Shown piece after piece: positions 29,465-42,367 of a stretch of 64,000 nt of DNA; positions within the stretch are counted from its first letter, which is position 1, and each line of letters begins with the position of its first letter. The notes beneath the pieces were generated by a model. The model was not told the DNA's origin. It ran no database searches and was given only the letters and a program-made list of their open reading frames with translations. The stretch is from Halobellus limi (GTDB lineage Archaea > Halobacteriota > Halobacteria > Halobacteriales > Haloferacaceae), in contig NZ_CP031311.1 in NCBI RefSeq assembly GCF_004799685.1, positions 2,170,001 through 2,234,000 on the forward strand, read 5' to 3'. The position numbers and the translations under genes are program-made.

Positions 29465-29511
29465 GGTGCGCGCTTAGTGCGACAGTGTCGGTGCAATTCC
29501 GACGGCGTACC
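29465..29511 (+). ncRNA. tRNA-like leader element (no anticodon arm)
   Basis: A 7-bp terminal stem (GGTGCGC with GCGTACC, one G-U) encloses a 5-bp arm GTCGG/CCGAC with a 7-nt loop TGCAATT resembling a T arm. The arm lies one base before the 3' acceptor strand. No anticodon arm is present. It is followed by a CCCC/GGGG hairpin at 29515-29529 and then GGAGAGAG before the ATG at 29546. It is the least canonical loop of the set. Confidence 0.55.
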
Positions 29512-29545
29512 CTTCCCCTGCGGACGGGGGGATACGGAGAGAGCT

Positions 29546-29779
29546 ATGTCTGATATGGCAATAAGCCGACGGCCGAGTGACTACCGGCCGACGACACACT
29601 TTGTTCAAAGATTGAAAGATCGGAAAGTGCCGGGCTTTGCGATCCGAGAGTGTATCGAATCGGGAGAGATTGAATCGGGTAATTCGCCCGATACGTGCGA
29701 GCTACGGCGTAATGGCTACTTTGTGGTGCTCAACGTCGAAAAGCGAGAGGCGGTGACTGTGGGTCAATGTGGTTGCTAA
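29546..29779 (+). CDS. DUF4258-like small protein (77 aa)
   Basis: ATG at 29546 follows GGAGAGAG. Upstream in-frame codons lie inside the tRNA-like element, so they are unlikely to be translated. The protein has THFVQRLKDRKVPGFAIREC, then CIESGEIESGN and RNGYFVVLNVEKREAVTVG, the helix-ExGE-strand-strand layout of DUF4258 proteins, some of which relate to RelE-like folds. First protein gene after the structured RNA. The next gene starts within its stop codon (TAATG). Confidence 0.65.
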   Translation: MSDMAISRRPSDYRPTTHFVQRLKDRKVPGFAIRECIESGEIESGNSPDTCELRRNGYFVVLNVEKREAVTVGQCGC

Positions 29780-29916
29780 TGAAGTGTCGAACACACGGCC
29801 GGGAGGTATCCCGGACCTATGACACTGCATTAGGGCGGTATGTGTATGAGTGTCCGGATTGCGTGAGAGACGCTTTTGAAAGAACGCGGGCGGGCGATAC
29901 GGGAGAAGCTGTCTGA
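29779..29916 (+). CDS. Small Cys/His protein (45 aa)
   Basis: ATG overlaps the previous stop. 45 aa with C3, H6 and a CPDC pair at residues 25-28, a possible zinc site. Followed one base later by the next ATG, so the frames are translationally linked. No family recognised. Confidence 0.5.
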   Translation: MKCRTHGREVSRTYDTALGRYVYECPDCVRDAFERTRAGDTGEAV

Positions 29917-29917
29917 T

Positions 29918-30061
29918 ATGGCTACGATCGATCAGATCAATCAGGATATGCGGGCGGAGGCGGGCAAAAAGTGGCAGCGAAAACAGGCTGCGATTCGGCC
30001 GGATCGATCCGGGCGGGCGCGTCTGGTGAGTGTGGCAATTCGAGTAATCAGGAGAGAGTAA
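29918..30061 (+). CDS. Small basic protein (47 aa)
   Basis: ATG at 29918, directly after the preceding TGA. Helical and basic (RAEAGKKWQRKQAAIRPDRS), unlike the acidic neighbours, so nucleic-acid binding is possible. The next gene begins one base after its stop. Confidence 0.5.
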   Translation: MATIDQINQDMRAEAGKKWQRKQAAIRPDRSGRARLVSVAIRVIRRE

Positions 30062-30062
30062 A

Positions 30063-30449
30063 ATGGCTACGTTATACGCTGAAGTCGGTGGTATTGCTGT
30101 GAAGAAGGCAGGAGCGGGCGAAAACCGGGATTCGAGAGTGTCGGTTAAGCTGTCGGGCGAGCTGACGATTGAAAAAGAGATTGCATACGGTAATCCGAAC
30201 ATTGACGCGTATTTCGTCCACGACCCACACTACCGCGATGAGCGATACGTCGAGATCGACGGGCAACAATGGGAGATCGACTGGTCAGATGGATATGTTG
30301 AGCTGCTGCTGCGTGTCGACGAGGTGTTAGCGTGTGCGGAGCAGCGGGCGGCCGAGGATTGTTCGACTGTCAAAGAGGTGTTAGAATCGTGGGTTCGATG
30401 GGACGACGCACCGGCCGAGATCGGGCGGGCGCTTGAGCAGGTGAAATAA
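30063..30449 (+). CDS. Hypothetical early protein (128 aa)
   Basis: Preceded by AGGAGAGAGTAAA. Beta-rich N-terminal half with alternating strands (VSVKLSGELTIEKEIAYGNP; YVEIDGQQWEIDWSDGYVEL), helical C-terminus. Acidic. The stop overlaps the next ATG (TAATG). Function unknown. Confidence 0.65.
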   Translation: MATLYAEVGGIAVKKAGAGENRDSRVSVKLSGELTIEKEIAYGNPNIDAYFVHDPHYRDERYVEIDGQQWEIDWSDGYVELLLRVDEVLACAEQRAAEDCSTVKEVLESWVRWDDAPAEIGRALEQVK

Positions 30450-30640
30450 TGACAGAGACGATCACGTTCGAGTTACCATTGAGCGCGCAAGCGGTCGAAG
30501 AAGACGGCGTTACGGTCGATGCGTTGTTTACGGCGTTAGATCACGCAAAAGCGTATCATAATCACGAGGGGGGTTACAAAGACCGATTCGACAATCTTGA
30601 GCAGTACATTTGGAATCAGGCCAAGGCGCAGTTAGAATGA
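30449..30640 (+). CDS. Hypothetical early protein (63 aa)
   Basis: ATG overlaps the previous stop; the end overlaps the next ATG (AATGAC). Acidic helical protein (VDALFTALDHAKAYHNHEGG). No family recognised; read as real from coupling and composition. Confidence 0.55.
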   Translation: MTETITFELPLSAQAVEEDGVTVDALFTALDHAKAYHNHEGGYKDRFDNLEQYIWNQAKAQLE

Positions 30641-30786
30641 CAAATCCGTTTGCGCTCTATGTCCGGGAGTACGATGAGCACACGCGAGCGAAGCACACTG
30701 CGCTAGCTATCAAGTTGCAGAAATGTGAGGATTGGCCTGATTTTGTCGTGGGATTCCGCGCTGAAGATCCGGTGGTTGTCGTGTAA
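30637..30786 (+). CDS. Hypothetical early protein (49 aa)
   Basis: ATG at 30637 overlapping the previous stop by 4 nt, ending in TAA at 30784. Sequence includes REYDEHTRAKHTALAIKLQK and ends in PVVVV. Last gene before a pair of tRNA-like elements. Confidence 0.5.
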   Translation: MTNPFALYVREYDEHTRAKHTALAIKLQKCEDWPDFVVGFRAEDPVVVV

Positions 30787-30805
30787 TTCCGACAGTGAGT
30801 TGAGT

Positions 30806-30848
30806 ACGTCGGCTGGTGAGTAGCCGGGGTTCGATTCCCCAGCGACGT
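30806..30848 (+). ncRNA. tRNA-like leader element (acceptor, D-like and T arms)
   Basis: Six-bp acceptor stem ACGTCG/CGACGT, a D-like hairpin GGCT-GGTGAGT-AGCC and a T arm GGGG-TTCGATT-CCCC with the canonical T-loop. There is no anticodon arm. A 6-bp hairpin follows at once (30851-30871, CCGACC/GGTCGG). Unlike the others, no gene starts straight after it; a second element follows 53 nt on. Confidence 0.7.
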
Positions 30849-30901
30849 TTCCGACCGAAAAGATAGGTCGGTAAGACATAGTTTTGGGGTTCCTCCCGTC
30901 C

Positions 30902-30947
30902 GCTCGTTCTTGGTAGATTATCCCCGGTTCGATTCCGGGGTACGAGC
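30902..30947 (+). ncRNA. tRNA-like leader element
   Basis: Acceptor GCTCGT/ACGAGC (6 bp), linker with TTGGTAGATTAT containing the D-loop-like GG, T arm CCCCGG-TTCGATT-CCGGGG. Next come hairpin CCCC-TTCGTT-GGGG at 30950-30963 and AGAGAGTG, 11 nt before the ATG at 30978. No anticodon arm. Confidence 0.75.
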
Positions 30948-30977
30948 TTCCCCTTCGTTGGGGAGAGAGTGTTTGTA

Positions 30978-31313
30978 ATGTCTGAAATTGAGAGAGCGGA
31001 GACGACGCGGCGAACGTACGGAATTGACGGTGGAATTGTGCCGGGGCGCTGTGCGGGATATGCGTACGATGGAGAGACGTATTGCCCTGCGTGTGCGGCG
31101 GAGATCGACGTAACGACGGCCGACGGCGACACGTACAAGATGGATCATTTTCCGGCCTACGACGACGACGGCCGAACGATCACGGACGGTCGAGGCTTCG
31201 GCGTTGGTGTAATCTCCGGATTTGACGAGTTTGAATATCCCGGTGGCTCTTGCGGTGTGTGCCTCCGACGGCTTGACACGAATATCCTCCCGGAAGGGAC
31301 GCTTATCATCTAA
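30978..31313 (+). CDS. Zinc-ribbon early protein (111 aa)
   Basis: ATG at 30978 follows the hairpin/GAGAGAGTG leader. Two CxxC knuckles, YCPACAAE near residue 37 and CGVCLRRL near 92, with an acidic, Gly-rich middle (YDDDGRTITDGRGFGVGVIS). The spacing suits a rubredoxin-like or split zinc ribbon. Function unknown. Confidence 0.65.
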   Translation: MSEIERAETTRRTYGIDGGIVPGRCAGYAYDGETYCPACAAEIDVTTADGDTYKMDHFPAYDDDGRTITDGRGFGVGVISGFDEFEYPGGSCGVCLRRLDTNILPEGTLII

Positions 31314-31325
31314 GGAAATAGACAA

Positions 31326-31454
31326 GTGCAAAACAGATACATCTGCGAAAACTGCGGCGAACCGTCTTTTGGCTACCAATCTCGGTGTGCAATCTGCGGA
31401 TTGATCTGCGGATCTCGCGGCCTTGAGTACAGCCCGGATGAGCTTGCGGCCTAA
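31326..31454 (+). CDS. Tiny zinc-ribbon protein (42 aa)
   Basis: GTG start at 31326, TAA at 31454. Cysteines at CENC (7-10) and CAIC (21-24), plus C28, form a compact zinc ribbon. Lies between two larger early genes, where nothing else is encoded. Confidence 0.55.
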   Translation: MQNRYICENCGEPSFGYQSRCAICGLICGSRGLEYSPDELAA

Positions 31455-31469
31455 AATTGAGAGAGAAAA

Positions 31470-32156
31470 ATGACGAGACACGACTACCCGGAGACTGAGT
31501 GGGGAACGCCGAACGGTCGGAACTACAGCTACAGGGTGCATATGAACAGCCCTGATTTCGAGCGTATGGTTCGGTTGAATCGGTGGGGGCTTCGAGATAT
31601 TACGATGAATCCCCGCGACGTTCACGCACCATTCCCGTATGTCGGTTTCAAAACGTTCGATCGGAAGGGGAAGGTTGCGGGTATGGAGAAATGGCTGTAT
31701 TCCCCTGCGTGGGAGTCTGGCCCGTGGGGACCGGGACGGCGCGAATCGCTCGAAATTCGTAATGCGACCGGTGGCGGGACTCGAATAAGAGGAGAGGTTT
31801 TCGTCGGGTTCGACAACGACGACATTCGATTCAATTACGTCGAGATCGATACGACGGTGCCGTTTACGCCGTCTGAGCTTGTCGCTATCATTGAGGGAGA
31901 GCCGGGCGAGTACCCGCACCCTGCGAACGAAAACCGGACGATCGACAGCGAAAAGGCCCGCGAGTTGATCGACGAAGAGCTGTTTTGGGCTGAGCAGGAC
32001 GCTATTGAAGCAGCGGTTGAAGCGGTCTATGAGTACCGCGAGGAGTGCGAGCACACGCATACAGTTGAGTTTGAATCACCGAAGATCGGTATGACGGTGT
32101 GCCGGGCGTCGGGCTACTGCGAGGATTGTGGTGTAGAATTTGAGGCTGTGCTATGA
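31470..32156 (+). CDS. Hypothetical early protein with C-terminal Cys cluster (228 aa)
   Basis: Preceded by GAGAGAGAAAA. Body includes HMNSPDFERMVRLNRWGLRD and aromatic-rich WLYSPAWESGPWGPG; the end carries EECEHTHTVEF then CRASGYCEDCGVEFE, a likely zinc site. Acidic and unique to my eye. The next gene overlaps its stop (ATGA). Confidence 0.65.
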   Translation: MTRHDYPETEWGTPNGRNYSYRVHMNSPDFERMVRLNRWGLRDITMNPRDVHAPFPYVGFKTFDRKGKVAGMEKWLYSPAWESGPWGPGRRESLEIRNATGGGTRIRGEVFVGFDNDDIRFNYVEIDTTVPFTPSELVAIIEGEPGEYPHPANENRTIDSEKARELIDEELFWAEQDAIEAAVEAVYEYREECEHTHTVEFESPKIGMTVCRASGYCEDCGVEFEAVL

Positions 32157-32302
32157 CTGAGATATTCCACGTTCCGGGAGAGGTCCACGAGTACGAGTTG
32201 TTCGATGGGTTCAAACACACGTTTCTGCTGGCTGAGACGGGGCGAGAGGCGACGGCGTGGATTGAGTCGGATATGACGTTTGATCTGTCGCTGAATCGGT
32301 AA
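32153..32302 (+). CDS. Hypothetical early protein (49 aa)
   Basis: ATG overlaps the previous stop by 4 nt. Beta-rich, acidic (FHVPGEVHEYELFDGFKHTF). No family recognised. Confidence 0.5.
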   Translation: MTEIFHVPGEVHEYELFDGFKHTFLLAETGREATAWIESDMTFDLSLNR

Positions 32303-32303
32303 T

Positions 32304-32348
32304 TCCCTGCGAAATTTCGTAACCTAATCTCACCGTTAGGGTAGGGAC
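32304..32348 (+). ncRNA. Diverged tRNA-like leader element
   Basis: A closing stem TCCCT/AGGGA surrounds a short palindrome CGAAATTTCG and a 5-bp arm CCTAA-TCTCACCG-TTAGG. The T-loop consensus is absent, but the context is the same: a hairpin CCCGG-ATTAT-CCGGG follows, then GGGAGAGTG and the ATG at 32376. Treated as a degenerate member. Confidence 0.35.
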
Positions 32349-32375
32349 TCCCGGATTATCCGGGGAGAGTGTAGA

Positions 32376-32654
32376 ATGTCTGTAAATGCAGCCGTAAGCA
32401 GTGACGACGCACAGATTGAGACGCCCAAATATGCAACGTTGAGCGTTGGAAACGTTGAGCTTCAATTGAGCTTGAGCGACGTGTTCAATATTCGGAGCGG
32501 GCTGCGGCGTGAGTCGTGGCGCGCTGAGAAGGAGGGTCGGACGTTCACCGCTGAGTCGTACGACGGTCTAAAGCGTGATCTGGCTGCTGTCGCGTACGAG
32601 CTTGGTGGTCGGAATGAGACACTGCTGTCAGAAATGGCAGCGGTTGAGCAGTAA
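32376..32654 (+). CDS. Hypothetical early protein (92 aa)
   Basis: ATG after the hairpin and GAGAGTG. Beta-rich first half (YATLSVGNVELQLSLSDVFN), helical second half (ESYDGLKRDLAAVAYELGGR). Acidic. A tRNA-like element begins two bases after its stop. Confidence 0.6.
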   Translation: MSVNAAVSSDDAQIETPKYATLSVGNVELQLSLSDVFNIRSGLRRESWRAEKEGRTFTAESYDGLKRDLAAVAYELGGRNETLLSEMAAVEQ

Positions 32655-32655
32655 C

Positions 32656-32696
32656 CCCGTCGGGTAGGTAATCCTCGGTTCAACTCCGGGGGCGGG
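32656..32696 (+). ncRNA. tRNA-like leader element
   Basis: Acceptor CCCGTC/GGCGGG (6 bp, one G-U), linker GGGTAGGTAAT with the GG pair, T arm CCTCGG-TTCAACT-CCGGGG. Then hairpin CCCC-ACTGT-GGGG at 32700-32712 and AGAGAGTGTATA before the ATG at 32725. No anticodon arm. Confidence 0.72.
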
Positions 32697-32724
32697 TTTC
32701 CCCACTGTGGGGAGAGAGTGTATA

Positions 32725-33729
32725 ATGTCTGAAACCAAGCAACTCCGATTTGATGGTGGAGCGATTGACGACGAAATTCTCGGGCTGCGCCGGGCGGCGA
32801 GAGAGGTTTTCGGGCTGTCGCGGGCTGACGCGGTTGAGCTAATCGCTGACGACGACGACGCGCGACCGCTGCGGTATCTCAATTATCTGGCTGCGGATCT
32901 CGAAGTCGGTAAGATCGAGTCGGTCAATCTCGCGGAATACCCACACGAATTTGATCTACTCATCGACGTGGGACCGACGGCGTGGTTTGTCGGCGAGTGC
33001 GAGCTATCGCTTCGAGAGGCTATGGATTTCGCGCCGCTCGGGTTCCAACTTGATGAGATCGAGATCCCGAAGCGGGTCGTTGAGGCGGTTGAGAATCCCC
33101 GTGAATGGATGGATCGGCTTGATGAGGCGTTTAGCGTTCGCGATAGCGGCGGCGACGACGTGTTTTGGCTGATTCCGAAGGGGAAGGACCGCTTTACGTG
33201 GATCGACGATTTCGGACATTCGTACTACGAAGACGCGTTCGAGTTTGTCGACGGCGATTACCTGTTTTGGGCTGACGACGACGACGCGCGAGATCCGCCG
33301 TTTGAGCTTGTTCACCGAGATTCGATGTGGGAATATTCGGATAATATTTCTGTGGTCGGTCACGCTGGCAAAGTCCAATACAATCACCTTGACGGCGTGA
33401 TTTCTGAGAGTTGGCACGAATCGACCGGCGAATATGATGATCTTGTCCGGGCGGTTGTCAGCCGGAACTTGGACGACGTGGGATACGTCAGCGTTGCGGG
33501 CGGCTGGCACTCCTCGATGGAACGCTCGGATCTCTCGGAGCGGATCAATTCGCTGACTCGGGGAGAGGGTCACGAAAACGGCGAGCTTGATTATCCGGTC
33601 GTCGTCAAGTTCGGGAAGACGACTAACGTTTGCTCGCTGTCGATCTCGATCTATGCTCACCCGGACGACGTGGATATGCTTGAGGGATTCTTAGACGCTC
33701 GGGCGGCTCCGGCGTACGCGGGGTTCTAA
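32725..33729 (+). CDS. Hypothetical acidic early protein (334 aa)
   Basis: ATG at 32725 fits the shared leader; an upstream in-frame ATG lies inside the hairpin. Strikingly acidic, with repeated runs such as IADDDDARPLRY and WADDDDARDPP, and tryptophan-rich patches (DVFWLIPKGKDRFTWIDDFG). The C-terminal part has EGHENGELDYPVVVKFGKTT. Largest of the small-gene block. Function unknown. Confidence 0.7.
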   Translation: MSETKQLRFDGGAIDDEILGLRRAAREVFGLSRADAVELIADDDDARPLRYLNYLAADLEVGKIESVNLAEYPHEFDLLIDVGPTAWFVGECELSLREAMDFAPLGFQLDEIEIPKRVVEAVENPREWMDRLDEAFSVRDSGGDDVFWLIPKGKDRFTWIDDFGHSYYEDAFEFVDGDYLFWADDDDARDPPFELVHRDSMWEYSDNISVVGHAGKVQYNHLDGVISESWHESTGEYDDLVRAVVSRNLDDVGYVSVAGGWHSSMERSDLSERINSLTRGEGHENGELDYPVVVKFGKTTNVCSLSISIYAHPDDVDMLEGFLDARAAPAYAGF

Positions 33730-33730
33730 G

Positions 33731-33835
33731 GTGGCGCTGTATTCCCGAGAGGTTGCCGTCGGGATCTCATTTTCTCTGGCGTTCGCGGCGCTTCTTGTCG
33801 TGCTGCGAGTGGCGCTGATTGGTGTGTGTCTATAG
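33731..33835 (+). CDS. Single-TM micro-protein (34 aa)
   Basis: GTG one base after the previous stop; 34 aa, almost wholly hydrophobic (EVAVGISFSLAFAALLVVLR), so one membrane helix. No other gene could occupy this gap. Start codon GTG and small size keep confidence moderate. Confidence 0.45.
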   Translation: MALYSREVAVGISFSLAFAALLVVLRVALIGVCL

Positions 33836-33849
33836 TACGGAGAGTGAAA

Positions 33850-34002
33850 ATGACGACAGTAAAAGAGAGTCTGAGTGCGGAACAGCTTGTGGAGATTGAA
33901 GCGGCGGGGCGGAAAGCGAGCGAGGAGAAGAAAGCGGCGCTGCGTCGTCGACGGCGGGCGGGAACGAAATACGGCCTTCTAATGGAGCGAGACAATGAGT
34001 GA
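33850..34002 (+). CDS. Small charged helical protein (50 aa)
   Basis: Preceded by CGGAGAGTGAAA. Helical, ending basic (RKASEEKKAALRRRRRAGTK). Overlaps the next gene start by 8 nt. May bind nucleic acid; unproven. Confidence 0.55.
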   Translation: MTTVKESLSAEQLVEIEAAGRKASEEKKAALRRRRRAGTKYGLLMERDNE

Positions 34003-34633
34003 CGTGCCTACCATTCAGACGCAGAGCGACTATCACAGATACATCAAGGGTCGGGCATACGACGAGATCCGTGAGACGATCGAGAATCTGTCGTATCGCC
34101 CGGACGGGCGGCGTCGGTGGTCTGGCGACGTTGAGGAGCTTGAGGAGGAGGTGTTTGATCGGATTCACTACTCGGTTGAGTGCTATGACGAGTTGACGTA
34201 CAATTACCCCGCATTTTGGGGGCTTGTAGCTCACTTCTCAGACGCGACCGAAGACGATGTTGAGATGTATCTTCACCTTTCAGATCCGCGCTCGACGCTT
34301 CGAGAGCTTGCGTATGCCTGTGTCGTGACAGACCTTCAGCCTGCAATCTCTGAGATCCTTTCGCTGTGGCGGGAGTACCCGGAGGTGTTCGCACTGTTCG
34401 ACGGATTTCAGGTTTCCCCGGCGAGCTTCGAGATTGACGGCTTTCTGTTCAAGCGGGATACGTCGGGCGAGCTTATGGCGTTCAATGAAGCGGAGAAGTT
34501 GGTTGAGTCCTACACTCCGTCAGCGTATGCGTACAATCACGACTTCCCGGAAGAAGCGTTCCTTGAGAACGTCGACGAGCTGATCTCATACAACCCTGAG
34601 GACGTGTGCGATTGGTTGAACAGAGAGAGATAA
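33995..34633 (+). CDS. Hypothetical early protein (212 aa)
   Basis: Acidic alpha-helical protein: YHRYIKGRAYDEIRETIENL at the start, VEELEEEVFDRIHYSVECYD, and NYPAFWGLVAHFSDATEDDV in the middle. No conserved catalytic motif seen. Overlaps the gene before it; the next begins at its stop codon. Confidence 0.65.
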   Translation: MSDVPTIQTQSDYHRYIKGRAYDEIRETIENLSYRPDGRRRWSGDVEELEEEVFDRIHYSVECYDELTYNYPAFWGLVAHFSDATEDDVEMYLHLSDPRSTLRELAYACVVTDLQPAISEILSLWREYPEVFALFDGFQVSPASFEIDGFLFKRDTSGELMAFNEAEKLVESYTPSAYAYNHDFPEEAFLENVDELISYNPEDVCDWLNRER

Positions 34634-34786
34634 ATGCACTACAGAGAGTCACTACAACTGGTTATCGGAGAGGCAACGCGGTTGAACGAGAGCGGGCTGC
34701 TGTCTGATTACGACCGGCGTATGGTTGAGGAGAGCGCAAAGGTGCTGGCTGAGTTTTTAGCGAACGCAGAGCAGCGGACTCGGTAA
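34634..34786 (+). CDS. Small helical protein (50 aa)
   Basis: ATG just after the previous stop (GATAAATG). Helical, MHYRESLQLVIGEATRLNES then VLAEFLANAEQRTR. Its stop codon's last base begins the next tRNA-like element. Confidence 0.55.
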   Translation: MHYRESLQLVIGEATRLNESGLLSDYDRRMVEESAKVLAEFLANAEQRTR

Positions 34787-34827
34787 CGCTGAGTGGTATT
34801 TTCAGGGGTTCGATTCCCCGACGGCGT
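34786..34827 (+). ncRNA. tRNA-like leader element
   Basis: Acceptor ACGCTG/CGGCGT (6 bp, one G-U), linker AGTGGTATTTTC with GG, T arm GGGG-TTCGATT-CCCC. Then hairpin CCCC-ATTGT-GGGG at 34830-34842 and AGAGAGTGTTTGAA before the ATG at 34857. Starts within the stop codon of the preceding gene. Confidence 0.75.
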
Positions 34828-34856
34828 GTCCCCATTGTGGGGAGAGAGTGTTTGAA

Positions 34857-35240
34857 ATGGAATGTGAAAGAGAGAGTGAGACGGTAGAAATTCCGCTCGA
34901 AACGCTGGCTGATATGGCCTTCAATCTCGCTCCGGAAGTAATGAAAAGTGACGAGTACAAGACGATGATCCCCGACGGTGGGGAGGCTGATGATCTCCCG
35001 TATATCTACGATCTACGCGACAAGTATGATTTCGTCGAGACGATCATAGATACGGAACGAGGATGGGGAGTTGTCTTCGGCGGAGAGCTTGAGTTTCCGG
35101 TGAGCTACCGGGTTTCGCGAGGATCATATTGGCATCCCCCGGAGTACGATAACGACTGGTACGATCTCCCGTGGGAGCTTGGGTTCTTCCCCGGTGATAA
35201 CGAGGGCTTCGGAAGCGCGTATTTCGAGGTTGGACTGTGA
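34857..35240 (+). CDS. Hypothetical acidic early protein (127 aa)
   Basis: ATG placed at the same distance from GAGAGAGTG as in sister units; a GTG nine bases earlier is possible. Acidic with aromatic patches (RGSYWHPPEYDNDWYDLPWE). The stop overlaps the next gene's GTG (GTGA). Confidence 0.6.
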   Translation: MECERESETVEIPLETLADMAFNLAPEVMKSDEYKTMIPDGGEADDLPYIYDLRDKYDFVETIIDTERGWGVVFGGELEFPVSYRVSRGSYWHPPEYDNDWYDLPWELGFFPGDNEGFGSAYFEVGL

Positions 35241-35356
35241 AACACCCTGAGAACGAAGACGACGACTACGAGGAGCCTGTGCTGTGTGCGACCTGCGCGC
35301 AGGAGATGAGCAAGTGGGCAAGCCGGTGCGAGCACTGCGGGGAAGTCTATGACTAA
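35237..35356 (+). CDS. Tiny zinc-ribbon protein (39 aa)
   Basis: GTG overlapping the previous TGA. An acidic N-terminus is followed by CATC (17-20) and CEHCG (31-34), a classic short zinc ribbon. Its end overlaps the next ATG by 8 nt. Confidence 0.6.
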   Translation: MKHPENEDDDYEEPVLCATCAQEMSKWASRCEHCGEVYD

Positions 35357-35579
35357 GAAAATAGAACTGCGACCGGGTTTACTTGTCCGATTTGAGTACG
35401 ACAGCAACGTGGCTGACGGAACGATCAGATCAGTTGGCTCGAAGCGGATTCACATTCAGTCGGGAGACAAGGGCGTGTACGTCTCACCCGACGATATTCT
35501 TGGAGTGGTTCGAGAACCGAAAGAGAACGAGCTTCCCCTGCTTGGCGAGCGATTCCGGCTTTCCGGCGGGGTTCGGTGA
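35349..35579 (+). CDS. Small beta-barrel-like protein (76 aa)
   Basis: MTKKIELRPGLLVRFEYDSN, then GTIRSVGSKRIHIQSGDKGV, a pattern of strands and turns like SH3/KOW-type barrels. Mostly soluble, mildly basic in the middle. Overlaps both neighbours. Function unknown. Confidence 0.6.
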   Translation: MTKKIELRPGLLVRFEYDSNVADGTIRSVGSKRIHIQSGDKGVYVSPDDILGVVREPKENELPLLGERFRLSGGVR

Positions 35580-35584
35580 GAGAA

Positions 35585-35854
35585 ATGACTGATTCAGAGG
35601 AAACCGGGTGTGAGGTGAGCATAGCGGGGCGAGTAACGAACGCAAAACGGGCTGGTCTTCACCCGATGCAACGATCCGACATTGAGGAGGGCGTTCACTA
35701 CGACGTGTTAGCGTACACAGATTGGGCGGATCTGTTCATTCCAACAGTCGTTCGGTGGGTGAACGGCGAGACGGATATGTTCAAAGATCCGGCCGTGACT
35801 GAGCGAAACAAGCGACAGTCGATTCAGCAGGTGATGATGGAGAATGAAGAGTAA
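35585..35854 (+). CDS. Hypothetical early protein (89 aa)
   Basis: ATG at 35585 after GAGAGAA; a GTG nine bases earlier would also work. Contains HPMQRSDIEEGVHYDVLAYT and IPTVVRWVNGETDMF. The following gene starts inside its last codons. Confidence 0.6.
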   Translation: MTDSEETGCEVSIAGRVTNAKRAGLHPMQRSDIEEGVHYDVLAYTDWADLFIPTVVRWVNGETDMFKDPAVTERNKRQSIQQVMMENEE

Positions 35855-35987: not shown

Positions 35988-36274
35988 TGTGGTCCGGTGT
36001 TCCTGACGAGTACCTTGGAGGGTGGCATAAGGTAGCCGACTACCCGGGGTTTGTCAAGTACCAATATAAGGACAGCCCGTACCGAGTGATAGCCGATCTC
36101 GATGAGCAGCGGGGGCACTACCGCGTTCTTTTCACCTCGGTCTACGGGACCGACTCGTACCTTGTGAAAGGCAATCTCGGGAAGGATGGGAGCCTCAAAT
36201 CTATCGTGATTGCAGAGCAGTTTATGGCTCAGAACAAGTGGGGGTGTCCGTCTCCGAGAGCGTATGGAAAGTAG
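35987..36274 (+). CDS. Hypothetical early protein (95 aa)
   Basis: ATG at 35987 overlaps the preceding TAA. Beta-rich with aromatic residues (GGWHKVADYPGFVKYQYKDS; RGHYRVLFTSVYGTDSYLVK). Last gene of the tight plus-strand block before the low-GC membrane cassette. Confidence 0.6.
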   Translation: MWSGVPDEYLGGWHKVADYPGFVKYQYKDSPYRVIADLDEQRGHYRVLFTSVYGTDSYLVKGNLGKDGSLKSIVIAEQFMAQNKWGCPSPRAYGK

Positions 36275-36430
36275 TCAGGGTATCAAAGAAGAGTTGCCAC
36301 GGTGTTTATTTCACGATCGCACAGCCGAATCACCCTTGAACTCTGCTTGTGTATCTTCCGAACCACTTGATATTTCGATAGACTAAGAAGCTATAGAAGT
36401 CCAGAAAAATCGCAAATCCACCGCTCATCT

Positions 36431-36916
36431 TCAATGGTATCCAAGATAGCGGGGAATAAACCGTCTCATTGGTACACGTTCAAGTTGATCCGTTTGTTCC
36501 TCAATATATTCGTTCAAGCGATCCGCATCTTTGCGGTAATCAAGAAGCTCATCGGGACCTATGTTAGAATCCAGTTCCTTACTTCCTCTTCGGATATTTT
36601 TTCGATTGCGTAATATGTGTTGGATAGACCGAATCACACCAGAAACATTATGTTTCATTTCGGGGTCCATCCACCATTCGTTTTCAAGAAAAAGTCTCTG
36701 TAAGTCATCAACCAATTGATTCAGATCTTCATCGGCGGGCGAGTAGGGAGTATTATATGATTCAAGATTACGAACGGCTTTGATTTTCAGGTGTAGCTCT
36801 TCGATGCTCTGTTTCTGCTCTCTGTAATAGGTGAGAAACTGACCAATCAAGACAGCAAATAAACCACCAAGAAACGAGGCCAAGACCACCGAGCCAGTGA
36901 GTAAAATTTGATTCAT
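36431..36916 (-). CDS. Membrane-anchored helical protein (161 aa)
   Basis: An N-terminal membrane helix (ILLTGSVVLASFLGGLFAVL) is followed by a long soluble helical region (REQKQSIEELHLKIKAVRNL ... YRKDADRLNEYIEEQTDQLE). Low GC compared with flanking viral genes. First of three minus-strand membrane-protein genes against the direction of the early module, which suggests an independently acquired cassette. Function unknown; exclusion or defence is speculative. Confidence 0.65.
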   Translation of the reverse strand: MNQILLTGSVVLASFLGGLFAVLIGQFLTYYREQKQSIEELHLKIKAVRNLESYNTPYSPADEDLNQLVDDLQRLFLENEWWMDPEMKHNVSGVIRSIQHILRNRKNIRRGSKELDSNIGPDELLDYRKDADRLNEYIEEQTDQLERVPMRRFIPRYLGYH

Positions 36917-36999
36917 CTTTACCCCTTCATATCCTAAGATCGACTAAGTGTTTGTGCCTCACTGCTAGCTCATTTAGAGCTAATCGGTGGGTGAAAATC

Positions 37000-37263
37000 T
37001 TATTCAGTACCCGTTGAGTCACTTGTTTCATTTTCGCTATCAGTATCCTTGGAAGATTCTCCGGAGGCAAAATTCTGGATTGGCCCCAAAAAGAACAACA
37101 GGACAAACACCCATCCAGTTAACTCCATTATTGCAGACTGTGTGACTGTCCCTGTTTCGATTAGTGATGTTAATGCAATAACGTAGACAATTAAAACGAG
37201 ATAGTGGACTCTTGTTGGAGCAATCATATTTGTGATAAAATTCCACACCGTGCTAATGTCCAT
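37000..37263 (-). CDS. Two-TM membrane protein (87 aa)
   Basis: Two hydrophobic helices (VHYLVLIVYVIALTSLIE and MELTGWVFVLLFFLGPI) and an acidic, Ser/Thr-rich C-terminus (KDTDSENETSDSTGTE). Low GC, same strand as its neighbours. No family recognised. Confidence 0.6.
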   Translation of the reverse strand: MDISTVWNFITNMIAPTRVHYLVLIVYVIALTSLIETGTVTQSAIMELTGWVFVLLFFLGPIQNFASGESSKDTDSENETSDSTGTE

Positions 37264-37428
37264 ATCTTATCCTATTTTTCTCACCAGTTAATCATTTACC
37301 TGTACTGAGTGGTTCGTTACTATTGATTCCTCTTTTCTTTTGGTGAATCAACCATCAGAGCGCGTTTGCTTATGGAAATACCTCTCAGCTTAGAAGAGGG
37401 GCGTCGGCTTAGGAGTCAGCATCATCTT

Positions 37429-37977
37429 CTATGGTGAGGTAGACGGATCGGTATCTCGTTCGAGAGAAGCTTTCAACTGGTCCAATTCGTTCGTTACCAA
37501 TCTCATACTAATCGGATTCACGGGGTTTCGGTGATAGCGTTCGAGAGTTTCTACGTCATATCCCCGAATCTTATACTCGCTTATTATCAATTCAACGTCA
37601 CTCCCAAAATCTCTCTTGTATTCGTTAGATAACGCTTTCCTTTGTTTTTCTTCTTCCTCTGTTTGTCGGATGTGTTCCTTGTAGTTTTCTTGTTTGGATC
37701 GATCATCCAACATTAACGCGACATCCAGATCTACACTCTCGGGTTCAAAGTCTTGGATTAAATGTCGGATATCGCGTTGAATTTCTCGGGTTCGGTAGAG
37801 TAATTCCTCATCCGATAATCTCTTTTCAGAAAACACATCTGAAATGGCATCGTACAAATCATTCGAGAGTCTTTTCAAAATCGTCTTCCCTATTATGCCG
37901 AGAGCCATACCGAGTAAACCCACACCGATGTAGTCTAACTGCATAGATAGGATATCCCCTATGTTCGTAAAGTGCAT
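37429..37977 (-). CDS. Membrane-anchored coiled-coil protein (182 aa)
   Basis: An N-terminal hydrophobic segment (LDYIGVGLLGMALGIIGKTI) is followed by charged helices (EHIRQTEEEEKQRKALSNEY). An AT-rich stretch upstream (38,020-38,035, TATTAATAG on the minus strand) could be its promoter. Similar layout to the 161-aa protein of this cassette, so they may act together. Confidence 0.65.
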   Translation of the reverse strand: MHFTNIGDILSMQLDYIGVGLLGMALGIIGKTILKRLSNDLYDAISDVFSEKRLSDEELLYRTREIQRDIRHLIQDFEPESVDLDVALMLDDRSKQENYKEHIRQTEEEEKQRKALSNEYKRDFGSDVELIISEYKIRGYDVETLERYHRNPVNPISMRLVTNELDQLKASLERDTDPSTSP

Positions 37978-38090
37978 ATCATCAAAAAACGATCGGGTGC
38001 ATTCGATGTGGCGAGAAATACTATTAATATCAATCGATATAGATTCTGTCTTGAACGATTCTCAGAGATACAGGGCGAATATACTGACGA

Positions 38091-38537
38091 TCAGACAAAC
38101 AGGTGAGAATACTTGTTCGACCACGCGAACAGTTGGCTGTACGCCCGTGCTTCGGCGGCGTCCCGGCTCCCGGTAAAGTAGAAATCAGCACTATGGGTCC
38201 GCTCCCACGCGTTGATTGACCCAATGATCGAGTTGGGATGCGCTTGGGAGTAGTAGTTCCCGGCTTTCAGATCGGCCTTTGAGGATTCGATATACACGTC
38301 AAATTCGGCGAGCTTATTCCCTCGGATCAGCTCGTCTTGGAATCGGTCGCGACCGTTGACGGTTGTGTTCACGAGATCGTCGAGTGATTTCCGTTCAATA
38401 GCAAATATATCCTCAAACCCGTGAACAGAGTAGTCGCCGGTATCCAATTTCGCTCGTTTAACCCGGACGGGGTATCCATCAAATTTCCACGGGGTCTGCT
38501 CCCGAGTGTCTACGACAATGACGAGCGGATCATTCAT
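38091..38537 (-). CDS. ERCC4-type nuclease
   Basis: 148 aa. The ERCC4/XPF nuclease motifs are clear: VVDTREQTPW near residue 8, LDTGDYSV near 31, and the core IERKSLDDL near 48 (E-R-K). Such enzymes cut branched DNA. As a single domain without the HhH or helicase parts, it may resolve replication or recombination intermediates of the virus. It overlaps the upstream gene by 8 nt. Confidence 0.85.
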   Translation of the reverse strand: MNDPLVIVVDTREQTPWKFDGYPVRVKRAKLDTGDYSVHGFEDIFAIERKSLDDLVNTTVNGRDRFQDELIRGNKLAEFDVYIESSKADLKAGNYYSQAHPNSIIGSINAWERTHSADFYFTGSRDAAEARAYSQLFAWSNKYSHLFV

Positions 38538-39015
38538 TGTTGACCCACTCCGGGAACAGCGGGATCAGCCGATGAATCAGCGATCGAATCTTTTTGTCGC
38601 TCAGATCAAGTTCGGCCTTGAGCCTGAGAAATTCAGAGTCATTGTTCTCGTCTGAGCGGTCGGGATTGTAGTAGCGCCGGTCACGGCGAACGGTCAGTGC
38701 ACAGACGGCGAAGACGACGGCCTCAACAGGGTGCCCGATCTCTCGAAGATTGAGATTATCGACCACGGAGCGGCCGTATCGCTTCTGCCAATCGGTTAGT
38801 TCAAGCTGGCCCGCAATCGCGTCGAAAACCGCGAGGTTGTCGATGCGGCGGATCTTTTCTTGGTCGGTGCGACCACGAGTGTAGATACCCGAGTTGTATC
38901 GGGCGAGAACCCGGTAGTGGCTCTGCGCGGATTCGTGAGCTTCGTCCGGGTGAAATTTCGTAGCATTATCCCCATCGGGGGTAATCGTTGGCTCTTCTTC
39001 GTTTTCGTCGAACAT
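38530..39015 (-). CDS. Cyclin-fold-like helical protein (161 aa)
   Basis: Acidic N-terminus, then helices: AVFDAIAGQLELTDWQKRYG, NLREIGHPVEAVVFAVCALT, and LKAELDLSDKKIRSLIHRLI. The run of helices around a small-residue segment resembles one TFB cyclin repeat, but no zinc ribbon is attached. Co-transcribed with the ERCC4 nuclease. TFB-like is a tentative fold guess only. Confidence 0.45.
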   Translation of the reverse strand: MFDENEEEPTITPDGDNATKFHPDEAHESAQSHYRVLARYNSGIYTRGRTDQEKIRRIDNLAVFDAIAGQLELTDWQKRYGRSVVDNLNLREIGHPVEAVVFAVCALTVRRDRRYYNPDRSDENNDSEFLRLKAELDLSDKKIRSLIHRLIPLFPEWVNNE

Positions 39016-39418
39016 AGAGAATCACAGAAGAGAGGGCGAGAGAGAACCGTGACAAGGTGAGACATAGATATAATGTATAAGATAGGATGTTAGAAGTAGA
39101 GATTCTACCTCTCTATGATAGAAGTAGTAGAGGTTAATCGGAAAGTGGACAGCAAGGAGGTAATGTAACCACTACAATGGTAGGAGTAGAGATTTTACTA
39201 CGACAATGTTAGAAGTAGAGATTCTACCACTAAGATCAGATAGTACCTCTTAGTGGGAACATCATATTGATGAGATTGATCTATCTAACACACATTAGAA
39301 TACACACTCAAATGGACGGTACAACGCTTGAGAAGCTATAACCCGCTTACTTCTCTTCACTAATTAGACACGGTTAGAGGAGATAACGTTGCCGGTGAGA
39401 GTCCCAACACAACTAAAA
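39016..39418. promoter_or_regulatory. Divergent control region with dyad repeats
   Basis: About 400 bp, AT-rich, between divergent genes. The 21-mer starting GTTAGAAGTAGAGATTCTAC occurs perfectly at 39089-39109 and 39208-39228. A variant (GGTAGGAGTAGAGATTTTAC) lies at 39179-39198, and a partial copy near 39117. Each contains the dyad GTAGA-N3-TCTAC, as expected for a dimeric regulator's operator or for origin iterons. A TATA-like GCTATAAC lies near 39,338 ahead of the plus-strand gene. Confidence 0.6.
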
Positions 39419-39925
39419 ATGATACCCCCGATGGATCAGATTATGGATGACAGAAAGTACAGTGTAGAAGAATTGGTGAAAGCATATATGGCCGGTTTGG
39501 TCGACGGTGCCGGATCGTTCTCGGTACAGGTACACAAGGACACCAATTACAAATCTGGCTACGCGTTCGCGGCATTTTTCAAGATGAATCACCGCCAGCA
39601 GGAGGCATTAGTCGACTTTGCGAATTGGGCGGAAGATCAGGGTGTTGAGGTGTCGGTTGAAGGCGAGTCGTCGCTGACCGTCGGAAAGATCGATGATTTG
39701 AAGCTCTTGATCGAGACGCTTCGACCATTTGTCCGAACAAAGGCGCTCGACGTGGAGATACTCGCTGAAGAGATCATCCCCCGGATTGAGGCGGGTGAGC
39801 ATACATCCGAAGACGGCCTGATCGAGTTGATGGGATACGTTGAGCAAATGCCGTCGGTGAATATGTCCAATCGAAAATACACGCAGGACTACTTCATTGA
39901 GGAGTTTAAAGAGGAGTCAGCCTGA
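39419..39925 (+). CDS. LAGLIDADG homing-endonuclease-like protein
   Basis: 168 aa from the ATG at 39419 (a later ATG at 39443 is also possible). One dodecapeptide-type motif, YMAGLVDGAGSFSVQVHKD near residue 20-35, is followed by the usual alpha/beta half-domain. A single motif implies action as a homodimer. It is free-standing, not inside an intron or intein that I can see. Some such proteins act as regulators. Its last codons overlap the convergent zinc-finger gene. Confidence 0.8.
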   Translation: MIPPMDQIMDDRKYSVEELVKAYMAGLVDGAGSFSVQVHKDTNYKSGYAFAAFFKMNHRQQEALVDFANWAEDQGVEVSVEGESSLTVGKIDDLKLLIETLRPFVRTKALDVEILAEEIIPRIEAGEHTSEDGLIELMGYVEQMPSVNMSNRKYTQDYFIEEFKEESA

Positions 39926-40508
39926 TCTGCCCATCTCGATATTCTTCAAGCAACTCGTCTAACATCCGAGCGGCGGTGACGAACCCCGCGCCCTGCTGTT
40001 CGCGTTGGCGGTACTCGTCAAGGAGATCCTCAAGAACGGCGACCGGGACCCCCTCTGCCGCCCCCTTTTCGCCGTGATCAGACAGGCTACCCATATGCGC
40101 TTGGAAGGCAGCGGCGGCATCTTCGGTATCAGGTTCGGGATCAGCGACCTTCTGCGGAACCCAAATCCCGGCAGTGTCAGCAGTGGCGCTCTCGGGGTGC
40201 TGAGAGTCGCCTTTGAGCATACCGAGGTGGGTTTCCAATCCCGCTTTGCCTTTGAAGTCGCCCCCACAGTGCTTACAGCGGTACACTTCATCAGACCTTC
40301 CCCGAACACGCTTACTGATCGGTTTGACCCCGACCGTCTCGGTTTCAGAGACGCGGAAGCCGTCGGGAACGGACCCTCGTGGGCCGTGGTCGTCATCGGC
40401 GGAAAAGGCAACGTGCCCGTAGAGAGAGCGGGCGAAGTGTTCCTCTCCACAGTAGGGACACTTCTTGATCTCTTCAAGAGATGTTGAGACTCTCTCGTAT
40501 TCTGCCAT
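39906..40508 (-). CDS. Zinc-finger DNA-binding protein (200 aa)
   Basis: Two zinc modules: CPYCGEEHFARSLYGHV near residues 17-33 and a C2H2-like YRCKHCGGDFKGKAGLETHL near 76-95 with a further histidine in SQH. The C-terminal half is helical. A minus-strand TATA-like GCATAAAA at 40551-40558 fits a start near 40,525. Probably a viral regulator; the nearby dyads at 39.1 kb are one possible target. Confidence 0.7.
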   Translation of the reverse strand: MAEYERVSTSLEEIKKCPYCGEEHFARSLYGHVAFSADDDHGPRGSVPDGFRVSETETVGVKPISKRVRGRSDEVYRCKHCGGDFKGKAGLETHLGMLKGDSQHPESATADTAGIWVPQKVADPEPDTEDAAAAFQAHMGSLSDHGEKGAAEGVPVAVLEDLLDEYRQREQQGAGFVTAARMLDELLEEYRDGQIRLTPL

Positions 40509-40606
40509 AGGCTCTCATTCGCTGCAAAACTGCATATCTGTTGCGGTTAATTTTATGCATCAACGGATGAGAACCCACCGAGGTAGTCACTGAATTAGCG
40601 GCAAGG

Positions 40607-40613
40607 TTATAAA
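40607..40613 (+). promoter_or_regulatory. TATA box ahead of the replication genes
   Basis: TTATAAA within GGTTATAAACTC. A start near 40,640 would place the tRNA-like element at 40,697 inside the leader of the 320-aa protein gene. It is divergent from the zinc-finger gene promoter. Confidence 0.5.
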
Positions 40614-40696
40614 CTCTCAGCACCTCTAATTAGTGAGGAGAAAGGGTAGTCACAACGACGCCCCGGAGTCCTTGTAATTTCTAAAATTCTATTCGG

Positions 40697-40746
40697 AGCA
40701 GCGATTGGTATAGCGTGAGTTGCCGGTTCGATTCCGGTACGCTGCT
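40697..40746 (+). ncRNA. tRNA-like leader element
   Basis: Seven-bp acceptor AGCAGCG/CGCTGCT, linker ATTGGTATAGCGTGAGTT with GG, T arm GCCGG-TTCGATT-CCGGT placed one base before the 3' acceptor strand. Hairpin TGCGGC-TATGTGC-GCCGCA follows at 40747-40765. No anticodon arm. The gene starts about 80 nt further on, so here it lies mid-leader. Confidence 0.75.
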
Positions 40747-40845
40747 TGCGGCTATGTGCGCCGCATCTACCTGTGTTACGCCACCGGTTGAGTGGTTTCT
40801 ATCTCTCTGATTTCTCTGCGGACGACAACAAAGAAATATAGCAAA

Positions 40846-41808
40846 ATGTCCTACGGAAACAAGTTCGGAAACAGTGGTAACGGCAACGAAAAAGACAGCG
40901 CAGTGGTCAAGACAGACGCGAACGTGGCGATTCGCGGGCGGCTTTCTCGGCTGGTGTACGCTGGTGGTGACTACGGCGAGAGCGTCGGGCTGCTTCTCGA
41001 CGATGCAGTGCTCGTTGAGGGCGTTCTGATGCGCGAGGTTGACTCTGGCTACCTCAAGGTATTCGGATGGACTGAGTTTGAGAATGATCTTCCGGAGGGC
41101 TACACTGCTGCGGACGCTCCCGAGGAGTACGACTTCCGACACCCGCAGGGCGTGAACACGTACTCGCTTGTCGCAGCCCGGCTTGTCCCTGATGGGGAGG
41201 AGCCGAGCGGCGAGGAGTACGAGATTGGAGATATGATTACGTTCGAGGGCGGTTCGGTGAAGCCAAAGGGATTCTCGCGGGCGCTCGTCAAGACGCTGGC
41301 ATCGAACCCCGACGAGATGGTCCTGAGCACGGACGACATTTACAACTGGCTCAACTCGGAGGTCACGCTGCGACCAGAGCTTGAGGGCCGCGAAGTTATC
41401 TACATCAAGTACCTTCAGGAGCCGCAGGACGGACGCGGAAACCCGTTCCAAATGCCGCAAGTGATCGATATGGAGTCTGGCGAAGTGATTATCAAGGAGG
41501 GCTACGGACAAACCTTCTTGCCGGGCGTCTCGGACGACGAGATTGACGTGGTTGTCGGTCAAGAGGCTGCGATCCCTGCGACCGACGGCGGTGCGACGGA
41601 CGTTGTTGCAGAGGCACCCGCTGAGGAGCCGTCCTCCGCCGCTGTTGACGAGTTTGTGACCACGATGATCGACCTTCAGGTTGACGACGAGGATCAGATT
41701 CTCGCACAGCTCACCTCGCTGGTGAACGCGGCGGGTCACGATCTGTCTGAGGATGCGGTTGACGCCTTCGGTGGTGAGTCCGCCGTCGTCGACGCGATTC
41801 TCGGATAG
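40846..41808 (+). CDS. Replication-module protein, possible ssDNA-binding role (320 aa)
   Basis: The N-terminus is Gly/Asn-rich (NKFGNSGNGNEKDS), followed by a beta-rich domain (DANVAIRGRLSRLVYAGGDY, YGESVGLLLDDAVLVEGVLM) that could be an OB fold. The C-terminal ~60 residues form a separate helical domain after an Ala/Pro-rich linker (VVAEAPAEEPSSAAVDE). High expression signals (own promoter and leader) and its place before ATPase and primase suggest a DNA-binding accessory. No motif proves this. Confidence 0.5.
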   Translation: MSYGNKFGNSGNGNEKDSAVVKTDANVAIRGRLSRLVYAGGDYGESVGLLLDDAVLVEGVLMREVDSGYLKVFGWTEFENDLPEGYTAADAPEEYDFRHPQGVNTYSLVAARLVPDGEEPSGEEYEIGDMITFEGGSVKPKGFSRALVKTLASNPDEMVLSTDDIYNWLNSEVTLRPELEGREVIYIKYLQEPQDGRGNPFQMPQVIDMESGEVIIKEGYGQTFLPGVSDDEIDVVVGQEAAIPATDGGATDVVAEAPAEEPSSAAVDEFVTTMIDLQVDDEDQILAQLTSLVNAAGHDLSEDAVDAFGGESAVVDAILG

Positions 41809-41847
41809 CTACTCTCTCCCTATTTCGCTGGTGTTCGGTTTCGGTTT

Positions 41848-41920
41848 GTCTCGGTAGCAGAGTTGGTAATGCGCCTCGCTGTTAACGAGGAGATCAGAGG
41901 TTCGAGTCCTCTCCGAGACG
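41848..41920 (+). tRNA. tRNA-Asn (GTT)
   Basis: Complete cloverleaf of 73 nt. Acceptor GTCTCGG/CCGAGAC with discriminator G, D-loop AGTTGGTAA, anticodon stem CCTCG/CGAGG with loop CTGTTAA (anticodon GTT), and T arm AGAGG-TTCGAGT-CCTCT. CCA is not encoded. A hairpin GCGGC-CTGTGT-GCCGC follows at 41922-41937, the same style as after the reduced elements. Haloviruses commonly carry tRNAs; this one lies inside a mostly noncoding cluster, not at an att site. Confidence 0.93.
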
Positions 41921-41953
41921 TGCGGCCTGTGTGCCGCGTTCTGCTGTCTGGTA

Positions 41954-42016
41954 GCCGTGGTTCGACTTCAATCTATATTCCTTTTTGCGGACCTCTCTAT
42001 TTTTGAGAGCCACGGC
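41954..42016 (+). ncRNA. Diverged tRNA-like element
   Basis: A perfect 7-bp stem GCCGTGG/CCACGGC encloses a 5-bp arm CTCTC-TATTTTT-GAGAG whose 3' strand abuts the acceptor strand, the acceptor/T-arm geometry of a tRNA. The 7-nt loop lacks the T-loop consensus. It lies between the tRNA-Asn and the next reduced element. Confidence 0.4.
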
Positions 42017-42019
42017 GGT

Positions 42020-42062
42020 CGCTGTGTGTGGTGTTCGTCGGGTCCGACTCCCGACCACAGCG
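42020..42062 (+). ncRNA. tRNA-like element
   Basis: Seven-bp acceptor CGCTGTG/CACAGCG, a 10-nt linker TGTGGTGTTC with GG, and a T arm GTCGGG-TCCGACT-CCCGAC abutting the acceptor. A hairpin CCCC-GTAA-GGGG (GNRA loop) follows at 42065-42076. No anticodon arm. Confidence 0.72.
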
Positions 42063-42124
42063 TGCCCCGTAAGGGGCTGATTTGGGGGAGTAGTTGTTCA
42101 CCCGAAAGGGGACAGCGAAACCAA

Positions 42125-42232
42125 CTCAGGGAAGCGAGTGTGGCTTACGCGGCTCGCCCGAAGAGAGCGAGTGTCTGATTCTCACGTCGGGGATAATCCT
42201 GATACGTCGCGGGTTCAACTCCCGCTCCTGAG
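42125..42232 (+). ncRNA. Cloverleaf-like 108-nt tRNA-like RNA
   Basis: Terminal stem CTCAGGG/TCCTGAG (7 bp, one G-U), D-like stem GCGAG/CTCGC near 42134-42156, anticodon-like stem CCCGA (42157-42161) with TCGGG (42187-42191) closing a 25-nt loop, and a canonical T arm GCGGG-TTCAACT-CCCGC at 42209-42225. The large loop and 17-nt variable region leave identity unassigned. It could be a tRNA with an intron, a degenerate tRNA or a bigger relative of the reduced elements. A CCCC/GGGG hairpin follows. Confidence 0.55.
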
Positions 42233-42327
42233 TTTCCCCTTTGACTGTAGGGGATTTGATTTGTTCTGACTCATTTGGCTGCTGGTGGGCCTGACTCGCC
42301 CACCTTTCTGATTACCGACGAGGATTT

Positions 42328-42367
42328 GCTACGATTGGATTTCGGCGGTTCGATTCCGCTGCGTAGT
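42328..42367 (+). ncRNA. tRNA-like leader element
   Basis: Acceptor GCTACG/CGTAGT (6 bp, one G-U), linker ATTGGATTTC with GG, T arm GGCGG-TTCGATT-CCGCT. Hairpin GGCCC-GTTGG-GGGCC at 42370-42384, extended by TTTG/CAAA, then AAAGAGAGAAAGAGAGTGG before the ATG at 42412. No anticodon arm. Confidence 0.72.

Follow-up and report, generated by a model that had tools for sequence, protein, structure and literature searches.

The window analyzed here, a stretch of 64,000 nucleotides (nt) from Halobellus limi (NZ_CP031311.1, positions 2,170,001-2,234,000; assembly GCF_004799685.1), encodes a terminase, a portal protein and a family-B DNA polymerase, the latter sharing 52% identity with the polymerase of Halorubrum tailed virus 27 (HRTV-27; Hafunaviridae, Minorvirus). 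Judged from these genes, the window carries a Hafunaviridae-like provirus, which is also recorded in IMG/VR as an element of 57,676 bp. From 58 kb (feature coordinates are window positions throughout) the GC content climbs to about 0.70-0.72, which corresponds to host DNA. A search for phages near-identical to this provirus found none. In gene leaders and between genes, the provirus holds eight short units (E1 to E8) with the fold of a tRNA that has been reduced to its acceptor stem and T arm. We propose that these units are viral t-elements, i.e., sites at which host enzymes would split the early polycistronic RNA into mRNAs, and we assign a probability of roughly 80% to this reading.

Anticodon-less tRNA mimics between protein genes

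All eight units lie on the + strand and none is located within a gene. They were first located by eye in combination with a sequence and structure descriptor, and their ends were set as in a tRNA, with 12 nt counted from the T-loop to the acceptor end. Every unit fits this rule within 1 nt, and the eight places given in an earlier note on this DNA were recovered within 1-2 nt. The anticodon arm is absent from each of them. Acceptor and T arm form a coaxial stack of about 12 bp closed by a 7-nt T-loop, which in seven of the eight units is accompanied by a linker with GG. These linkers (TTGGTA, GTGGTA, CTGGTGA, TAGGTA, GTGGTG and TTGGAT among E2 to E8) resemble the D-loop, as had been described for all units but the first. 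The T-like arm with a 7-nt loop, also described previously, has a T-loop sequence in E2 to E8; the loop of E1 (TGCAATT) falls outside the consensus. E1 has the geometry, the hairpin and the leader of the other units and is the least certain of the eight. E2 and E3 form a tandem pair, and E7, E8, a complete tRNA-Asn and a larger relative of the units form one cluster.

A strict descriptor (T-loop TYCRA plus C61, at most one mismatch in the T stem, six perfect acceptor pairs and a linker of 7-20 nt) returned eight matches on the + strand of the window and one on the - strand, versus 0.6 per strand in Markov-shuffled sequences (order 1-3). The + matches comprise six of the listed units, the large relative at 42124-42234 and one site at 61431 in GC-rich host DNA. 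E3 failed the descriptor by one acceptor mismatch, yet it obtained the top score in a graded scan; E1 fails the T-loop rule. Across E2, E3 and E5 to E8, 88.9% of the cells are paired (63.3% in shuffles, 37-51% in slid controls), double-sided changes number 21 (8.3 ± 2.2 in shuffles), and the covariation score reaches 0.81, versus 0.07-0.22 in slid controls. Structure rather than sequence is thus retained, in agreement with the earlier description. Taken singly, the units have modest folding-energy z-scores (-0.2 to -2.8), and it is therefore covariation and position, rather than stability, that carry the case.

The units are not canonical tRNAs, since ARAGORN and Rfam recognize tRNA-Asn alone, and at a loose threshold Rfam returned no family matching the units between 29.4 and 42.45 kb. 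An intron-bearing tRNA was rejected for the units and for the relative at 42124, as ARAGORN with introns gave implausible long-intron calls under loosened settings only. Likewise rejected was a 3'-terminal tRNA-like structure of the turnip yellow mosaic virus type: the units are internal in DNA-encoded transcripts and have a simple acceptor stem instead of the pseudoknotted one of that type.

Conservation in haloviruses and relation to the 5S t-element

The earlier note had made its proposal depend on conserved pairing in related viruses, and such conservation was found both by covariance-model search and in the form of compensatory changes. R1, a covariance model built from six window units alone, matched HF2, Hardygib1, HCTV-7 and HRTV-8 (E 3e-6 to 2e-5), Serpecor1 (5e-6) and HRTV-27 (2e-4), where the matches sit in gaps between annotated genes. 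Taken together, 20 units of the window and the viruses show 71 double-sided changes (20.5 ± 4.0 in shuffles) and 89% paired cells (38-53% when slid); the alignment was fitted to the structure, hence the weight of the slid control. Two orthologous units are retained in 14 of 14 HF2-group haloferacalesviruses read. Among the distinct sequences of one of them, unit b, acceptor pair 3-40 is UA in eight and CG in two and pair 5-38 is CG in nine and UA in one, and its flush hairpin likewise changes in compensated pairs. Whole-record searches identified units in 15 of 19 halovirus records, including members of the Haloferuviridae (HRTV-4, HFTV1) and Saparoviridae (HCTV-2) in which the unit fills the gap from stop to start codon. 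Units are also present in seven of ten environmental or provirus records, one of which is the window's own provirus, and a second Hafuna-like provirus from another genus carries six. As a separate observation, a type II hammerhead ribozyme is annotated ahead of the Rad3-like helicase gene in viruses of the HF2 group (HF2 10292-10359; L003:37563-37630; L005:9837-9902), which adds another type of RNA-cutting element to the same early operon.

One site upstream of a prohibitin-like gene illustrates what is conserved. HF2, Hardygib1 and HCTV-7 carry a complete tRNA-Arg(TCT) here, and the orthologous site of Serpecor1 and HRTV-8 holds, within near-identical flanks, a mini unit that is 27 nt shorter and has no anticodon arm. 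The acceptor stems differ (CGAGTTG/CAACTCG in the mini unit, GGGGACG/CGTCTCC in tRNA-Arg) and the stems are re-paired, with 11-12 of 12 pairs formed (11 in the mini unit). The exchange with re-paired stems therefore indicates that the acceptor/T-arm fold is retained at this site and decoding is not. A partial tRNA-Arg with a 28 nt deletion has been reported for Serpecor1 and HRTV-8 (PMC7230728, PMC8707807), and it is one of these units. We note in addition that the D arm is very short in the Hafunaviridae tRNA-Tyr (L004:20827-20897 in HF2, L005:21244-21311, L006:12787-12718 and L002 near 14129), possibly a half-way state between tRNA and t-element. A role of the units as attP was not supported: in HF2 this role is held by a separate tRNA-Thr-like gene, and the units are multiple and differ in sequence.

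A second covariance model, R2, was trained on the 20 viral units only, with no 5S elements included. Of 242 Halobacteria genomes, 130 gave matches at E<=1e-3. Among the 29 best loci outside the host genome, 21 adjoin a 5S rRNA gene, a share that refers to strong matches only. The 5S gene starts one base past the model end, within 1 nt when partial 5S matches are allowed for, and the 5S-leader elements score 40-47 bits. In Haloferax volcanii, tRNase Z is described as making the 5' end of 5S rRNA at this t-element (Holzle et al. 2008, RNA 14:928; 2012, Biochimie 94:940; as cited in PMC3296008 and PMC4326828). Because a purely viral model finds the 5S t-elements, which are known tRNase Z substrates, we assign the viral units, as judged by sequence and fold, to the same RNA class. 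The earlier view that the kind of element was unknown does not stand, as t-elements have been reported before, from Haloferax and from plant mitochondria. The units are functional RNA, an element of a known kind that viruses put to a new use. In a phylum-wide sample, R2 gave no match outside Halobacteriales at E<=1e-4, and in the own genome seven of the eight matches at E<0.001 are provirus units.

Some further loci are of interest in their own right. The host chromosome contains a single strong R2 match (38.5 bits; G000:C1:99113-99156) outside the provirus and not beside 5S. The t-element in the host's own 5S leaders is longer and includes an additional stem that separates acceptor and T arm, whereas most haloarchaea examined have the short form. 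In other haloarchaeal genomes, t-element-like matches away from 5S (L059:9873-9915, L060:2424-2468, L061:9691-9732, L062:9806-9847 and 16452-16493) lie 0-26 nt ahead of an ATG, one exactly at the ATG; some are near MCM replication genes and perhaps belong to mobile elements.

A hairpin at the predicted cut and the proposed processing

Two features go beyond the earlier description, namely a GC-rich hairpin at the 3' border of each unit and the multi-armed relative of 111 nt (Table 1). If the 5S border is transferred onto the viral units, the cut is predicted just ahead of the hairpin. In the window this applies to nine of nine units (E1 to E8 and the large relative), and in 23 of 35 non-5S units the best hairpin starts -2 to +3 nt from the predicted border, versus 7.4% of random positions. 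The large relative gives no tRNA call; its acceptor and T arm are separated by hairpins resembling the D, anticodon and variable arms. Since tRNA-Asn is also trailed by the same kind of hairpin, the complete tRNA, the large relative and the mini units share one plan. In E1, E3, E4, E5 and E8 the hairpin and then a short leader separate the border from the start codon, and in other units the start codon lies only 0 (L059), 6 (HRTV-4), 7 (L062) or 11 nt (HFTV1) from it. Haloarchaea translate nearly leaderless mRNA well. Both a flush hairpin and a nearly leaderless mRNA make sense if the border becomes a 5' end.

Table 1. Units, hairpins and related elements of the window (hairpins as stem(loop)stem; flush, starting directly at the 3' border of the preceding element; ORF, open reading frame).
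Feature	Position	Strand	Acceptor or hairpin	T-loop	Linker	Context
E1	29466..29512	+	GTGCGC/GCGTAC	TGCAATT (non-canonical)		leader of ORF from 29546, 33 nt from border
Hairpin at E1	29513..29532	+	TTCCCCTG(CGGA)CGGGGGGA			flush
E2	30806..30850	+	ACGTCG/CGACGT	TTCGATT	CTGGTGA	stop codon 19 nt upstream
Hairpin at E2	30851..30871	+	CCGACC(GAAAAGATA)GGTCGG			flush
E3	30903..30948	+	GCTCGT/ACGAGC (6 bp, counted from 30902)	TTCGATT	TTGGTA	ATG 30978, 29 nt downstream
Hairpin at E3	30949..30964	+	TCCCC(TTCGTT)GGGGA			flush
E4	32656..32698	+	CCCGTC/GGCGGG	TTCAACT		1 nt past TAA; ATG 32725, 26 nt downstream
Hairpin at E4	32699..32713	+	TCCCC(ACTGT)GGGGA			flush
E5	34786..34829	+	ACGCTG/CGGCGT	TTCGATT	GTGGTA	shares last A of TAA; ATG 34857, 27 nt downstream
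Hairpin at E5	34830..34842	+	CCCCA(TTG)TGGGG			flush
E6	40698..40747	+	GCAGCG/CGCTGC	TTCGATT	TTGGTATAGCGTGAGTT	leader of gene from 40792 (GTG) or 40846 (ATG)
Hairpin at E6	40748..40764	+	GCGGC(TATGTGC)GCCGC			flush
tRNA-Asn (GTT), complete	41847..41921	+				same transcript as units
Hairpin behind tRNA-Asn	41922..41937	+	GCGGC(CTGTGT)GCCGC			
E7	42021..42063	+	GCTGTG/CACAGC	TCCGACT		
Hairpin at E7	42064..42077	+	GCCCC(GTAA)GGGGC			flush
Large relative, 111 nt	42124..42234	+	ACTCAGG/CCTGAGT	TTCAACT (T arm GCGGG TTCAACT CCCGC)		
Hairpin at large relative	42235..42254	+	TCCCCT(TTGACTGT)AGGGGA			flush
E8	42328..42369	+	GCTACG/CGTAGT	TTCGATT	TTGGAT	ATG 42412, 42 nt downstream
Hairpin at E8	42370..42384	+	GGCCC(GTTGG)GGGCC			flush

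Two other parts of the window are of note. Upstream of E1, 28500-29460 contains many small hairpins with a weak coding signal and may be a structured early leader. At 39060-39260, a run of near-repeats (AGAAGTAGAGATTCTACC and similar) precedes the ORF at 39389 and possibly provides operator sites.

The suggestion that the units mimic the tRNA elbow and serve as processing sites in polycistronic early RNA is the best-supported reading, given the 5S t-element class, the placement between stop and start codons and the flush hairpin. In this model the units are minimal tRNA mimics, composed of an acceptor stem, a GG-bearing remnant of the D-loop and a T arm, which would lie in early-gene leaders and between the genes of one extended early RNA. 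Genes for RNase P RNA and RNase Z are present in the host. By analogy with the 5S t-element, the host's tRNase Z should cleave immediately 3' of the acceptor, and RNase P would probably act at the 5' border, as assumed from the class. Engineered constructs with two t-elements are indeed cut in vivo by RNase P and tRNase Z in Haloferax (PMC4326828). Both cuts would split the polycistronic RNA into individual mRNAs, and each downstream mRNA would open with the flush GC hairpin and continue through a short leader to the AUG. Protection of the 5'-monophosphate end is the probable role of this hairpin. In the case of HF2, long RNAs are made, yet Northern blots display mostly species of 1-2.5 kb, for which the authors suggest processing (PMC8707807); these data fit our model and are no proof of it.

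Several observations weigh against this model. E1 has no T-loop consensus and was missed by both R1 and R2. The hairpin is not universal, as HFTV1, HRTV-4 and one HRTV-25 unit have none downstream. In HF2, a 5' end determined by primer extension (T-4384, called a transcription start site) lies inside the unit at 4375-4416 and not at its border; if this is a true start, RNA initiated there would be missing one half of the acceptor, and cleavage would be limited to read-through RNA. Whole-record searches of HGTV-1, HVTV-1, phiCh1 and BJ1 gave no match, and therefore not every halovirus needs the device. Finally, cleavage in the window's virus is deduced from class membership.

The strongest alternative, which we nevertheless consider unlikely, is that the units remain uncut and, as structured elements at the 5' end or between cistrons, stabilize mRNA or tune translation. 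The position of E1, E3, E4, E5 and E8, 26-42 nt ahead of start codons, would suit such a role; together with the following hairpin the units form a stable fold, and cleavage is a step that we infer. A plain hairpin would suffice for stability, yet T-loop, GG and the length of 12 bp have all been retained, and the units are of the very class to which a known tRNase Z substrate belongs. Moreover, the exact start of the second hairpin at the predicted cut would be left unexplained. We attach very little likelihood to excised units serving in trans. Once cut out by RNase P and tRNase Z, the units would be free mini-tRNAs of 40-50 nt that could be decoys for host enzymes modifying, processing or cleaving tRNA, and many tRNA enzymes bind the elbow (PMC4810234), but a trans-acting RNA needs neither the tight placement between stop and start codons nor a hairpin at its 3' border, and units of the same class serve in cis at 5S rRNA. 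Slightly less credible still are functionless, decaying genes from a viral tRNA set. The presence of tRNA-Asn and the large tRNA-like relative among the units and the reduction of the tRNA-Arg site to a mini unit in some HF2-group members are in line with decay, which would however break the stems first, whereas all acceptor and T stems are paired despite their differing sequences. Compensatory changes, a position conserved in 14 viruses, pairing better than in slid controls and a series that runs between protein genes, always in sense, also argue against decay. Transcription terminators or attenuators, suggested by the tandem, intergenic hairpins, were rejected as scarcely tenable, since no U-tract but mostly a GAGAGAG or GTGAC leader and then a start codon follows the hairpins, and the downstream genes run in the same direction.

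Novelty and comparison with known systems

In the mostly open literature covered, which gives no proof of priority, we found no description of serial operon punctuation by prokaryotic viruses, of the flush hairpin or of the exchange between tRNA and mini unit, and an archaeal tailed-virus survey in PLoS Biol does not mention 'tRNA-like'. As far as found, three aspects are therefore new: the serial occurrence of the units in tailed haloviruses, where they would punctuate operons; a GC hairpin whose start usually coincides exactly with the predicted tRNase Z cut; and one orthologous site with a complete tRNA-Arg in some viruses and a mini element in others. How long primary transcripts of haloviruses become short RNAs has been left open (PMC8707807); the units would provide a concrete answer, with cut sites predicted to the nucleotide. 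With them, the range of t-elements widens from a single rRNA leader to the operons of viruses. They also demonstrate that, at one site, a tRNA gene is interchangeable with a reduced version lacking the anticodon, and they account for the tRNAs that halovirus annotations list as 'partial' or 'aberrant'. The t-element is already used as a genetic tool (PMC4326828, PMC4946936), and the units could add natural, modular parts for RNA cutting to the genetics of haloarchaea. More speculatively, and with rather low confidence, tailed haloviruses and related mobile elements may share a general system of tRNA punctuation, in which serial t-elements, independent of sequence, set many early mRNA 5' ends, a flush hairpin or an immediate AUG substitutes for a cap, and the excised mini-tRNAs also act in trans, e.g., by occupying host tRNA enzymes or tRNA-cleaving defences while the virus takes over the cell.

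Among known systems, the 5S t-element is closest. It shares with the viral units the acceptor and T arm, the TTCGAYT loop, the GG linker, the lack of an anticodon arm and a position directly 5' of the RNA that is, or in the viruses would be, released; the viral units differ in being serial, in lying in protein-coding operons ahead of mRNAs, in their usually flush hairpin and in their individual stem sequences. For viruses of the HF1 group, partial or aberrant tRNAs and an attP tRNA have been reported (PMC7230728, PMC8707807), where we found no series of processing elements described. Plant mitochondrial mRNAs likewise contain t-elements, according to Forner et al. (2007) as cited in PMC4368725: a tRNA-like structure in mRNA leaders or trailers helps to set mRNA ends via tRNA-processing enzymes. 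These belong to a eukaryotic organelle, are few per genome, have no serial use with flush hairpins and are, as far as tested, not kin by descent. Similar to the tRNA punctuation of animal mitochondria, tRNA folds between the genes of a polycistronic RNA would mark the cut sites. Animal mitochondria employ complete, decoding tRNAs, whereas the viral units dispense with the decoding half, though at one orthologous site some viruses have the full tRNA and others the mini unit.

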